Positions 16,962-57,068 of a stretch of 64,000 bases of DNA are shown here, one piece after another. This stretch comes from Aeromicrobium piscarium (GTDB lineage Bacteria > Actinomycetota > Actinomycetes > Propionibacteriales > Nocardioidaceae): positions 124,001 to 188,000 of the forward strand of contig NZ_VLNT01000001.1 in NCBI RefSeq assembly GCF_007421815.1, written 5' to 3'. The translations under genes were made by a program, and so were the position numbers. The notes beneath the pieces are model-generated. The model was not told the DNA's origin. It worked only from the letters and a program-made list of their open reading frames with translations, and did not search any database. The first letter of the stretch is position 1, and each line of letters starts with the position of its first letter.

Positions 16962-17190
16962 GATTCCCGTCACCGGCTCTCCCGGCGAAGCCGGCTCTTC
17001 CCGGTGGCGGAAATCGAGTCGGGCCCCTCGTCCGCGCGCAGCGCGCTGGATAGGGATCCCGTCACCGGCTCCACCCGCGCAGCGGGCTGCTCCCCCGGTG
17101 GCGGGAATCGAGTTGGGCCCCTCGTCCGCGCGAAGCGCGCTGGGCACGGATCCCGTCACCGGCTCTCCCCGGACCTCCTTCTCGCGTGAA
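16962..17190. repeat. structured ~93-bp tandem repeat at the prophage/host junction
   Basis: Units at 16962-17054 and 17055-17148 plus a partial third from 17149. Each unit begins GAT(T)CCCGTCACCGGCTC and folds into a long stem (GATTCCCGTCACCGG with CCGGTGGCGGAAATC) enclosing a 5-bp hairpin, then a second hairpin CGCGC/GCGCG. The inner hairpin is CCGGC-GAA-GCCGG in unit 1 and CCCGC-GCA-GCGGG in unit 2, a compensatory base-pair change. The opening segment resembles the T-arm and acceptor 3' strand of a tRNA, so a copy could contain the attachment site. No convincing gene lies between 16813 and 17264. Confidence 0.7.
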
Positions 17191-35684: not shown

Positions 35685-38600
35685 TCAGGACTTGTCGTCG
35701 TCCTCGTCGGCCGCCGCCTGGGTGGCGCTGTCGCTCAGCTCGCTCCCGGAGGGATTCTCCTCGCTCAGCTCGGCGACATCCTCGGCGACCGGATCGGGCT
35801 CGGCGCCCTCCTCGACCGGGGTGATCGCACCCCGCTCCTCCTCGCGGGCGGAGTCGTCGTCGGCCGTGGGGGAGTCGTCGAAGATCTCCTCGGCCGGCGA
35901 CTCGTCAGGATCGTTCTCCTTGGTCGCCGGGATCTCGGGACGATCGTCCTTCGAGGGGACCGACTCCTCCTCGGGGTCGGTGGCGTCACCGGCCTCCGGC
36001 TCGGGATCGGGCGTGGGTTCTTCGTCGGCGGCGGTGGACTCGGCGGTCGTCAGAGTGTCGGACACGTTCTCAGTGTCCTCCGCCTCCGTCGACTCCGCAG
36101 GCTCCTCGGTCTCCGAGGCCTCCTGCTCGTCGGCGGGCGCGGGCGTCGCCTCCGCCTCGGTGGGCTCCGCGGCAGCAGTCTCGGAATCGTCGGCAGACTG
36201 CGCGGCCTCCGGCTCCTCCGACTCGGCCTCGGGCTCCTCCTCGGAGGGAGGCTCCACGGCGCCGTGGCCCTTGCCTTCGTCGTCGACGGCGATATTGCTC
36301 TCCGCCGCGACCGCGACGTCCTCCTCGCGTCCGGCCGAGACCGGCTCGTCGAGATCGGCATTCGCCTCCGGCTCCGCCTCACCGGTCTCGGTCGCCTCAG
36401 CGGCCGCACCGACATCGGCGGTATCGGTGAGGGTCTCCGGGTCGGCCTCGGCCGCGGCATCGGGCTCGGCCTCGGTGGCCTTGTCCTCGTCCCCGCCGCC
36501 GGTGGCAGCGGCAGCGGTGGCGGCCTCCGCCTCGCTCACGATGGCCTCGGACTCCTCAGCGCTCGGCTCGCGCTTGACCGAGGCGAGCAGCATCTGCGCG
36601 ACGTCGAGCACCTCGACCTCGACGCGAGCCTCGCCATCGGCCTGCTTGGCGGTCAGGCCATCGGAGAGCATGACGCGGCAGAAGGGGCAGCCCACGGCGA
36701 TCTGGTCGGCGCCGGTGGCGATGGCCTCCTCGGTGCGGTTGATGTTGATGCGCGAGCCGATGGTCTCCTCCATCCACATGCGCGCACCGCCGGCGCCGCA
36801 GCAGAAGGACTTCTCACTGTGTCGCGGCATCTCGGCGTAGGTCGAGCCGGGGATCGCGCCGAGCAGCTCGCGCGGCGGCTCGTACACCTGATTGTGACGG
36901 CCCAGGAAGCACGGATCGTGGTAGGTGATCGTCTTCTCGGCCTCACCGGCGCCCGGGGCGACCGGCTGGAGCTTGCCCTCGCGCACGAGGCGGTTGAGCA
37001 GCTGCGTGTGGTGCACGACCTCGAGCTCGACGCCGAACTCCTTGTACTCGTTCTTCAGCGTGTTGAAGCAGTGGGCGCAGGTGGAGACGACCTTCTTGAC
37101 CTTGGTCTCCTTGAAGACCTCGACATTCTCCATCGCCAGCTGCATGAAGACGATCTCGTTGCCGGCGCGGCGAGCGGAGTCGCCCGTGCAGGTCTCGCCA
37201 TCGCCGAGCACCGCGAAGTCGACACCAGCGATGTTCAACAGCTCGGCCACCGCCTGGGTGGTCTTCTTGGCGCGATCCTCGAAGGCGCCGGCGCATCCGA
37301 CCCAGAACAGCCACTCGACCTCGTCGAGGCTCTCGATGTCCTCGCCGACCTGCTTGACCTCGAAGTCGAGGTCCTTGGCCCAGTCCATCCGGTTCTTGGG
37401 GTTCATGCCCCACGGATTGCCCTTGCGCTCCAGGCCCTTGAAGATGTTGTTCAGCTCCGTCGGGAAGTTCGACTCCACGAGCACCTGGTAGCGGCGCATG
37501 TTGTCGATGTGGTCGACGTGCTCGATGTCGACGGGGCACTGCTGGACGCAGGCGCCGCAGTTGGTGCAGGACCACAGGACATCAGGGTCGATGACGCCGA
37601 AGAGGTCCTCGTCGCCGATCAGCGGACGCTCCAGCTCGCGCTTCTCGTCCTCGGTGAGGGTGTCGGCGTCCTTCTCCAGCAGCGGCACCTTGGCGTAGGC
37701 GTGCTCGCGCAGGCCCATCATGAGCAGCTTGGGCGACAGCGGCTTCTCGGTGTTCCAGGCGGGGCACTGGCTCTGGCAGCGGCCGCACTCGGTACAGGTG
37801 GTGAAGTCGAGGATGCCCTTCCAGGAGAAGTCCTCGACCTTGCCGACGCCGAGCTTCTCGAAGTCCTCCTCCTCGAGATCCTCCATCTTCTCCATGTCGA
37901 GGCGCTCGCCGTTGAGGTAGAGCGGGACGAGCCCGCCGAGCGCGGTGCCGCCGTCGACCTCGCGCTTGAAGTAGATGTTGAACCAGGCGCTGAATCGGTG
38001 CCACGCGACACCCATCGAGATGTTGCGGGAGATGACCGCCAGCCACACCATCGCCATGAGCACCTTGGAGAGCGCGAGCAGCACGATCAGGGTCTCGGTG
38101 CCGCTGCCCGACAGGCCTCCGAAGAGGGTCTCACCGATCCAGCCGGTCAGCGGGAAGTGCGCGAAGTTGGCGTGGTCGGAGCCTTCGGTCTGCAGCAGCC
38201 GGTACTCGGCGGCGCGGATGAAGACACCCGCCAGGCCCTCGCCGAGGATGATGAGCTCGACGAAATAGGCCTGCCAGAAGGTGGAGCCGAAGAAGCGGCT
38301 CTTGCGGTCGAGCTTGCGGGGGTGGTTCTTCTGGCGGATGTAGATGAGCGCCGCGATACCGATGACGGTCAGCCAGGCGAGGAGGTCGGTCAGCCAGATG
38401 AAGGGGTACCAGGTGCCGATGATCGGCAGCAGGAAGTGGGGGTCCCAGACCTGGAAGTAGCCGCTGAGCACGGCGGTGCTGAGGTAGATGAACCCGGCGA
38501 ACACGAACCAGTGCATGACGCCGACGAAGGTCCACTGCAGCATACGCGTGTGGAGCACCGTCTCCTTGAGCATGGTGCCGATGCGCTTGGCGGGCTGATC

Positions 38601-38732
38601 GCTGCGGCCGACGGCCGGCTGCCCGGCGCGGATGATCCGCAGCATCTTGCGGATGCCCACCACGGCCAGGTAGACGGCGACCGCGGTGACGGCGAGCGAG
38701 ATGATGCCCGCTACGAGGGAGATCGTGCTCAT
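35685..38732 (-). CDS. membrane Fe-S oxidoreductase, DUF3390/GlpC-HdrD type
   Basis: 1015 residues, ATG at 38732. Five membrane segments (residues ~5-235, e.g. MHWFVFAGFIYLSTAVLSGY) form a NarI-like part. Two 4Fe-4S motifs follow: CTECGRCQSQCPAWN (~310-325) and CTNCGACVQQCPVDI (~390-405). Two CCG-type cysteine domains follow, with CAHCFNTLKNEY and FCCGAGGARMWMEE. The last ~280 residues are an acidic, Ala/Glu/Ser-rich low-complexity tail. Homologues in mycobacteria (Rv0338c type) are essential membrane oxidoreductases of unclear substrate. The start codon overlaps the stop of a short upstream ORF (ATGA), and a 19-bp terminator ends the gene. Confidence 0.9.
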   Translation of the reverse strand: MSTISLVAGIISLAVTAVAVYLAVVGIRKMLRIIRAGQPAVGRSDQPAKRIGTMLKETVLHTRMLQWTFVGVMHWFVFAGFIYLSTAVLSGYFQVWDPHFLLPIIGTWYPFIWLTDLLAWLTVIGIAALIYIRQKNHPRKLDRKSRFFGSTFWQAYFVELIILGEGLAGVFIRAAEYRLLQTEGSDHANFAHFPLTGWIGETLFGGLSGSGTETLIVLLALSKVLMAMVWLAVISRNISMGVAWHRFSAWFNIYFKREVDGGTALGGLVPLYLNGERLDMEKMEDLEEEDFEKLGVGKVEDFSWKGILDFTTCTECGRCQSQCPAWNTEKPLSPKLLMMGLREHAYAKVPLLEKDADTLTEDEKRELERPLIGDEDLFGVIDPDVLWSCTNCGACVQQCPVDIEHVDHIDNMRRYQVLVESNFPTELNNIFKGLERKGNPWGMNPKNRMDWAKDLDFEVKQVGEDIESLDEVEWLFWVGCAGAFEDRAKKTTQAVAELLNIAGVDFAVLGDGETCTGDSARRAGNEIVFMQLAMENVEVFKETKVKKVVSTCAHCFNTLKNEYKEFGVELEVVHHTQLLNRLVREGKLQPVAPGAGEAEKTITYHDPCFLGRHNQVYEPPRELLGAIPGSTYAEMPRHSEKSFCCGAGGARMWMEETIGSRININRTEEAIATGADQIAVGCPFCRVMLSDGLTAKQADGEARVEVEVLDVAQMLLASVKREPSAEESEAIVSEAEAATAAAATGGGDEDKATEAEPDAAAEADPETLTDTADVGAAAEATETGEAEPEANADLDEPVSAGREEDVAVAAESNIAVDDEGKGHGAVEPPSEEEPEAESEEPEAAQSADDSETAAAEPTEAEATPAPADEQEASETEEPAESTEAEDTENVSDTLTTAESTAADEEPTPDPEPEAGDATDPEEESVPSKDDRPEIPATKENDPDESPAEEIFDDSPTADDDSAREEERGAITPVEEGAEPDPVAEDVAELSEENPSGSELSDSATQAAADEDDDKS

Positions 38733-38815
38733 GCCGCCACCGCCTCAAGGAAACCGCACGATAGGCGGTGCCGGCATGAGGTGGAGCCCATTGTTCGCTC
38801 GCTGCGCTCGCTCAT
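38729..38815 (-). CDS. 28-residue upstream ORF, proximal copy
   Basis: ATG 38815 to TGA 38729. Sequence: MSERSERTMGSTSCRHRLSC, then GFLEAVAA. The stop overlaps the Fe-S oxidoreductase start as ATGA. It is identical to the middle copy. It carries two Cys and three His/Arg clusters. Probably a leader ORF that delivers ribosomes to the large gene; no function as a peptide is implied. Confidence 0.45.
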   Translation of the reverse strand: MSERSERTMGSTSCRHRLSCGFLEAVAA

Positions 38816-38898
38816 GCCGCCACCGCCTCAAGGAAACCGCACGATAGGCGGTGCCGGCATGAGGTGGAGCCCATTGTTCGCTCGCTGCGCTCGCTCAT
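38812..38898 (-). CDS. 28-residue upstream ORF, middle copy
   Basis: ATG 38898 to TGA 38812, identical in sequence to the proximal copy and overlapping it by ATGA. The pair arises from an exact 83-bp tandem duplication. Confidence 0.45.
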   Translation of the reverse strand: MSERSERTMGSTSCRHRLSCGFLEAVAA

Positions 38899-38981
38899 GC
38901 CGCCACCGCCTCATCGATGAAGCGACAGGCCGGTGCCGGCGTGAGGAGATGCGGGTCGCTCACTCGCTGGCGCTCGTTCAT
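38895..38981 (-). CDS. 28-residue upstream ORF, distal copy with ribosome site
   Basis: ATG 38981 to TGA 38895: MNERQRVSDPHLLTPAPACR, then FIDEAVAA. Same length as the other two but diverged, sharing the start MxERxxR and the end EAVAA. A strong GGAGG (38988-38992) lies 6 nt before the ATG, and a TACGGT -10 box at 39000-39005. The next ORF overlaps its stop by ATGA. Confidence 0.5.
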   Translation of the reverse strand: MNERQRVSDPHLLTPAPACRFIDEAVAA

Positions 38982-38999
38982 GAAGATCCTCCGGTTCGG

Positions 39000-39005
39000 A
39001 CCGTA
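39000..39005 (-). promoter_or_regulatory. -10 box TACGGT for the upstream ORFs and Fe-S oxidoreductase
   Basis: On the minus strand TACGGT would start transcription near 38993, leaving just enough leader for the GGAGG ribosome site. Confidence 0.45.
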
Positions 39006-39161
39006 CAGATGGTGCCGACACTAGCGCCGCCTGAGCGACCTGCCTCACTAAGGCAAGCCAAACACCACGATGCGATGGTCGACGTGAGTCGATGTTACCC
39101 GAGGGTAATCAGGTGAGCCCAGAGCGGGCGACGATCGGCTGGAAGCTCCTGTCGTGCATGT

Positions 39162-56021: not shown

Positions 56022-56138
56022 TGAGGTGAGGCCGATCTGAGGCCTACTGCCCGCGGCCCGGTGCGCCGAGGCTGGTTCCATGCCCGAAGGAAGTGAGCGA
56101 ACGGTTCAGATGTCGTGCCGACGGCCGCAGGTGCCGGC

Positions 56139-57068
56139 ATGACCGTCGCCGCCCGCTCAACCCTGCCGCTCGTCGCAGCCGGACTGGCCGCGCTCCTCCT
56201 CGACGGCGGTCCGGTGAGCCCCCTGATGCTCGCTCTGATCGCCGGGGTGCTCTGCGCCCAACTCCCGTGGTCCACCGCGGCGGTGGAGGTGCTCGGCAAG
56301 ACCGCTCTACGTCTGGGCGTCGTCCTCCTCGGATTGCGACTCAGCGTGGCGGCCGTCGCCCAGATCGGCGTCGCGGGCGTCGCCATCGTCGTCGCAACGA
56401 TCGTGGTCACCTATACGGCGACCCAGCTGGCCGGACGGTGGCTCGGCGTCGACGACGACTTGCGGACGTTGATCGCGGTGGGTTTCTCGATCTGCGGCGC
56501 GGCCGCGATCGCTGGCGTTCAGGACCTCGTACGTGCCCGCCGTGAGGCCGTGGCCCAGGCGGTGGCGATGGTGACGATCTTCGGCAGCGCGATGATCCTG
56601 CTCGTGCCGGCGATCTCGGGACTGCTGGGCTTGAGCGACCGGCAGGCGGCCGTGTGGGCCGGGGCGAGCATCCACGAGGTCGCGCAGGTGGTCGCCGCCG
56701 CCTCCGCGGCCGCGCCACTGGCCGTGGGCATCGCGGTGTCGGTCAAGCTGCTGCGGGTGTGCGCGCTCGCGCCGATGTCCCTCGTCGTCACGCAGGCCGC
56801 CGGTGGCGTGCGGGGGGTTCCGTGGTTCGTCATCGGTTTCGTTGTGGCTGTCCTGGTCCGGTCGACCGGCTGGATGCCGCAGGGACTGCTGGACGTCGCG
56901 GATCTCGCGACGACGGCGTTGCTGGCCGCAGGGATGTTCGCGCTCGGGCTCGGTGTACGGCTGAGCACGGTGACACGCGGCACCGGGCGGCTCGCTGTGC
57001 TCTCGGCCGTGAGCACGGGTGTCGCGGCGGGAGTCTCGTTGCTCCTCGTCACTTGGCTCGTGCGGTGA
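56139..57068 (+). CDS. YeiH-family putative sulfur-anion exporter
   Basis: 309 residues from ATG 56139 (GTG at 56115 also in frame). About ten membrane segments. YeiH features: KTALRLGVVLLGLRLSVAAV, LIAVGFSICGAAAIAGVQDL, VWAGASIHEVAQVVAAASAA and VSVKLLRVCALAPMSLVV. The family (UPF0324/Cons_hypoth698) is linked to sulfate, sulfite or taurine-derived anion export, mostly from genome context. Confidence 0.85.
   Translation: MTVAARSTLPLVAAGLAALLLDGGPVSPLMLALIAGVLCAQLPWSTAAVEVLGKTALRLGVVLLGLRLSVAAVAQIGVAGVAIVVATIVVTYTATQLAGRWLGVDDDLRTLIAVGFSICGAAAIAGVQDLVRARREAVAQAVAMVTIFGSAMILLVPAISGLLGLSDRQAAVWAGASIHEVAQVVAAASAAAPLAVGIAVSVKLLRVCALAPMSLVVTQAAGGVRGVPWFVIGFVVAVLVRSTGWMPQGLLDVADLATTALLAAGMFALGLGVRLSTVTRGTGRLAVLSAVSTGVAAGVSLLLVTWLVR

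Follow-up and report, generated by a model that had tools for sequence, protein, structure and literature searches.

A dispersed family of open-frame repeats inserted at start codons in Aeromicrobium

Three units before the etfD-like gene

The window, that is the whole 64,000-nucleotide stretch of the Aeromicrobium piscarium genome analysed here, carries on its minus strand (35685-38732) a gene for an etfD-like membrane Fe-S oxidoreductase of 1015 residues with the Pfam CCG and Fer4 domains, whose product matches PDB 9ojn (E 1e-206). Three 83-bp units of the same strand sit at its start and take up the 250 bp before it: unit 1 (38899-38981; ORF 38895-38981, MNERQRVSDPHLLTPAPACRFIDEAVAA), a diverged copy; unit 2 (38816-38898; ORF 38812-38898, MSERSERTMGSTSCRHRLSCGFLEAVAA), which matches the covariance model introduced below at E 6.4e-22; and unit 3 (38733-38815; ORF 38729-38815), equal to unit 2 in sequence. 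Each of the three ORFs consists of 28 codons and a TGA that overlaps the next ATG as ATGA, with the TGA of the unit 3 ORF overlapping the etfD-like ATG at 38730-38732. An earlier, sequence-only reading had described such an 83-bp unit in two identical copies and one diverged copy, running through ATGA overlaps into the large gene, and the coordinates, an 83-bp period at 38727-38982 (TRF) and the alignment, in which unit 1 is identical to units 2 and 3 at 65 of 87 positions, agree with it. It had also placed a strong GGAGG before the first ORF alone, near a TACGGT, and one or two cysteines in each leader peptide. Likewise, we locate a GGAGG Shine-Dalgarno at 38988-38992 (minus strand), preceding unit 1 only, and the TACGGT, a candidate -10 box that the three nearest relatives share, at 39000-39005 (minus strand), and count 1, 2 and 2 Cys in the three peptides.

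In A. camelliae and A. phragmitis, relatives without the element, GGAGG stands directly before the etfD-like ATG, and in the window this native Shine-Dalgarno is displaced by 249 bp by the units. Upstream of the gene there are also candidate operators, namely a palindrome, TTACCCTCGGGTAA, and a CTTGCCTTAGTGAGGCA box (window 39095-39108 and 39041-39057), and sequences resembling them are found again upstream of its orthologues in other Aeromicrobium. Elsewhere in the window (16965-17165) lies a 94-bp tandem repeat of 2.2 copies that by eye is not related to the start-codon family.

A family dispersed at start codons

The head motif of the units has two matches in the window against none in 100 shuffles, and the head ATGAGCGAGCGNAGCGAGCG has 80 matches in the genome at up to two mismatches, as against seven for the reversed control. 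A covariance model, R1, built from an alignment of 45 units, finds about 72-75 units in the A. piscarium genome, in 48 arrays of one to three units each. The start-codon repeat family is dispersed and not special to the etfD-like gene; since the 48 arrays stand before unrelated genes, the chain of small ORFs marks a mobile repeat and not a sensor of the Fe-S gene. The window itself holds a second, decayed element of 59 bp (56080-56138, plus strand; ORF MPEGSERTVQMSCRRPQVPA with its stop; R1 E 2.6e-4), which is ATGA-coupled to the gene at 56139-57068 (PF03601). From the arrays, chains of ORFs with ATGA or GTGA overlaps run into the ORF that follows on that strand, which mostly has 100-500 codons (just 56 and 88 in two cases), and the units are oriented like this adjoining downstream gene. 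At 37 of the 48 arrays the first ATGA also closes an open frame of 100 codons or more that lies upstream, some of these frames in a GC-rich genome not being genes. At L003, L015, L016 and other loci of the same genome, genes start with the element head in frame (MSERSER...), as if their N-termini had been donated by it.

The nearest relatives of the etfD-like gene likewise place the genome in Aeromicrobium. R1 hits are present in 21 of 24 other Aeromicrobium genomes, with 1 to 71 in each; Aeromicrobium sp. PE09-221 has 68 and two other species have seven each. A class-wide search matched 15 of 122 genera, Aeromicrobium included, and the distant loci that we read hold mostly ATGA-coupled units of 74, 77 or 80 bp. 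The Rfam search returned only chance microRNA models, and the units had no match in plasmid and phage collections. Our literature search found no account of MIRU-like repeats in actinobacteria or of interspersed repeats in Aeromicrobium.

To look for empty sites, the joined flanks of 24 arrays were searched against three relatives. At nine loci, etfD among them, the sequence of one or more relatives runs uninterrupted over the exact junction; some other loci in this comparison differ in unit number between relatives. As orthologous sites are exactly empty in relatives, the element inserts at the start codon. The empty etfD site of A. camelliae and A. phragmitis reads GGAGGATCCC followed by ATGAGCACG, and PE09-221 has at this site a single 59-bp relic where the window has three units. 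The sequence-only reading had called for a comparison of copy number among relatives, and at etfD this gives 3, 1 (decayed), 0 and 0; between species the counts are likewise 3/1/0/0 at C44_86282 and 3/0 at C3_35833. Unit 1 and the PE09-221 relic have ATGAAyGAGCGCCAGCGAGTGAGCGACC in common; as the relic thus carries the head of unit 1, this unit is probably the oldest insertion, and units 2 and 3 probably came afterwards. ATGA is found at both ends of the element, consistent with a 4-bp target duplication. No terminal inverted repeats were seen, and the autonomous partner was sought as a Y1 (RAYT) transposase (PF01797), which is absent from all 11 Aeromicrobium genomes searched while control genomes respond. 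At two of the same start-codon junctions in PE09-221 (L239 and L243) we observed a palindromic repeat of another kind, about 98 bp long, which, with both strands counted, has 26 BLAST matches in the genome of the window and 22 in PE09-221, and none in the six other Aeromicrobium genomes searched.

Frame, peptide and hairpins

The 72 units hold no in-frame stop, as against 20, 43, 33, 82 and 43 stops in the five alternative frames. The units of this genome are mostly of 80-83 bp, with lengths of 71, 74, 80, 83 and 84 bp and one unit of 41 bp. A length of 2 modulo 3 is found in 69 of 72 units of this genome, 54 of 54 in PE09-221, 78 of 83 in other Aeromicrobium and 37 of 38 in other families; these counts share ancestry and so are not independent trials, yet they draw on several classes of length and on indels that compensate one another in pairs. 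Only one array, L019 (C12:126587-126844), breaks the rule per unit: three 84-bp units are fused in frame into a 94-codon ORF, and the array is still coupled through a short remnant. Among the relatives, units of 79 and 82 bp and a 37-bp relic in PE09-221 also break it, so that coupling is not absolutely required. The body of the peptide is neutral, with an in-frame pN/pS of 1.07-1.14, and the frame in which the middle of the unit is read differs between the 83-bp and 80-bp classes. Thus, the stop-free frame, the length rule and the neutral body together indicate that what is kept is an open frame and its register and not the peptide.

These results bear on the proposal of the sequence-only reading that the units form a regulatory leader of the Fe-S gene, in which the length of a re-initiation chain would tune translation or act as a sensor, of cysteine supply for example. 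Mycobacteria have cysteine-responsive upstream ORFs, as that reading had stated, and of its chain much stands, including the ATGA-coupled ORFs leading into the gene, the native GGAGG now placed before the first ORF and the gain or loss of whole units. Specificity for the Fe-S gene has to be given up, however, since dozens of unrelated genes have such units in front and two near relatives of the etfD-like gene are without any unit, and the supposed role of cysteine is not supported either, as 24 of the 72 units have no Cys, central Cys is confined to one frame class, and the body is neutral with its centre read in two frames across subfamilies. We therefore regard a dedicated leader as improbable, with copy number possibly regulating etfD nonetheless. 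A cysteine-dependent attenuator in the upstream ORFs was also considered as a candidate and set aside, because it calls for conserved Cys codons and these were not encountered.

The 3' part of the unit is a dyad, CTCATGCCG.CACCGCCT / AGGCGGTG.CGGCATGAG, with the next start codon inside. On the minus strand of the window, that of unit 2 (CTCATGCCGGCACCGCCT / AGGCGGTGGCGGCATGAG; 38811-38863) encloses the start codon of unit 3, and that of unit 3 (38728-38780) the start codon of the etfD-like gene. Across the family the dyad has 17 pairs, with 88% of cells paired and both-side changes in seven pairs; in the named structure 42 cells show such changes against 15.9 in shuffles, and the covariation score is 0.214, compared with 0.123 in shuffles (0 of 500) and no higher than 0.072 for the slid structure. 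In folding energy, single units are at best mildly better than shuffles (z -0.2 to -2.6), so that the hairpin is supported more strongly by covariation. A smaller hairpin, helix 1, lies in the head: in unit 2 it is GC-GA-GC-[GCA]-GC-GA-GC at unit positions 5-19 (38880-38894, minus strand), and in unit 3 the covariation analysis places the same sequence at 38797-38811 (minus strand). The form NN-GA-GC-GNA-GC-GA-N'N' is kept with compensating outer pairs, 97.8% of cells being paired and two pairs having changed on both sides.

The head is also where a second alternative finds its case, namely a family of functional micropeptides (MSERSER...) encoded by the units, with the DNA conserved on account of the peptide. 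The frame is never interrupted, and the head (SERSER) has a pN/pS of 0.36-0.38 in frame compared with 1.5-2.1 in the other frames, which could reflect a conserved peptide but is confounded with the head hairpin. Variation in the head falls mainly at the loop base of this covarying hairpin, a fourfold position (21) is 88% A, and the body is neutral and read in two frames across subfamilies, all of which makes a peptide function very unlikely.

A probable ribosome hand-on and the relation to MIRUs

We consider it likely, at a probability of about 85%, that the unit is a non-autonomous mobile repeat of start codons that hands the ribosome on to the gene through its own ORF, in the manner of MIRUs (mycobacterial interspersed repetitive units). 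The element inserts exactly at a start codon, within (A/G)TGA and often where an upstream stop already overlaps, leaving ATGA on both sides, so that a small ORF runs from the left ATG to the TGA of the right ATGA. Ribosomes from the native Shine-Dalgarno or the upstream gene would then translate the unit, melt the dyad, terminate at ATGA and re-initiate there on the next ORF. With the next start codon lying inside the hairpin, initiation at that codon should require a ribosome that has come through the unit, and the dyad may block independent initiation there. Selection acts on the open frame and the length of 2 modulo 3 and not on the peptide sequence, whole units are gained or lost in tandem after insertion, and the element would presumably be mobilised in trans by an enzyme. 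Such a hand-on through the unit would account for the exact position, the orientation, the frame, the length rule and the neutral body alike, and the best reading is that of a selfish repeat which translational coupling makes tolerable. A REP/REPIN-like palindrome moved by a RAYT (Y1) transposase, and found near starts because insertions inside genes are lost, would likewise be a dispersed short palindromic repeat, at times in tandem and with a covarying hairpin, but we give it the least credence of all, as here the Y1 transposase is absent from the 11 Aeromicrobium genomes searched, insertion is strictly at the ATGA of start codons and in a single orientation, and the frame is open and constrained in length.

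Coupling by termination and re-initiation, in which the stop of a short ORF or of a gene overlaps or abuts the start that follows, is reported for the iraD leader (PMC5574718) and for gene pairs (PMC6728339). Those are gene-specific leaders or pairs, in contrast to the mobile family at about 48 loci seen here.

The closer parallel is with the MIRUs, reportedly described by Supply and colleagues in 1997. Our query for this comparison was a presumed MIRU sequence, which 152 of 326 Mycobacterium genomes contain, often as tandem copies, with the PE family (PF00934) serving as the marker of the genus in the genome sample. The mycobacterial loci that we read hold 50- and 53-bp units with coupled ORFs; given this and the tandem occurrence, the presumed sequence was used for the comparison, and from it, the 53-bp length and the coupled ORFs we take these units to be MIRUs. 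R1 itself has no match at E<=1e-4 among the sampled Mycobacterium genomes. MIRUs insert at start codons, their ORF being coupled with a -4 spacing that probably limits harm (PMC12548453); they are described as lacking dyad symmetry and carrying small ORFs that overlap adjoining ORFs of the same direction (PMC4473831), and in the senX3-regX3 region are 53 and 77 bp long (PMC4213456). Like them, the Aeromicrobium units are short dispersed repeats at start codons or operon junctions, with a small overlapping ORF, the orientation of the gene and tandem copy variation. They differ in being mostly of 80-83 bp and in their strong, covarying dyad around the start that follows, and thus depart from the absence of dyad symmetry. 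A further likeness may be the 15-nt motif NN-GA-GC-GNA-GC-GA-N'N', at equal ORF phase in both; its outer two pairs are CA/TG in the mycobacterial units versus GC/GC or CC/GG here, complementary in either case. However, the 11-nt core by itself turns up often by chance (31-35 control hits per strand), so that common descent of the two is possible and not established. More tentatively, and at rather less than even odds, MIRUs and the Aeromicrobium elements may be branches of one start-codon superfamily spread through the Actinomycetes, joined by the head hairpin, the length of 2 modulo 3 and an enzyme recognising ATGA, with the terminal dyad of Aeromicrobium making each insertion a switch.

With these findings, start-codon repeats, a type described from mycobacteria, are extended to a further order and, in a weaker form, to several other actinobacterial families. 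They also counsel caution in actinobacterial annotation, in that small ORFs or N-termini starting MSERSER may be mobile-element sequence. The covarying hairpin around the next start, a new feature relative to MIRUs, makes the coupling model directly testable, and dozens of natural pairs of empty and filled sites are at hand for measuring the effect of an inserted translated leader on expression. If the superfamily and switch were borne out, translation of the host gene could begin only with ribosomes coming from the translated element.
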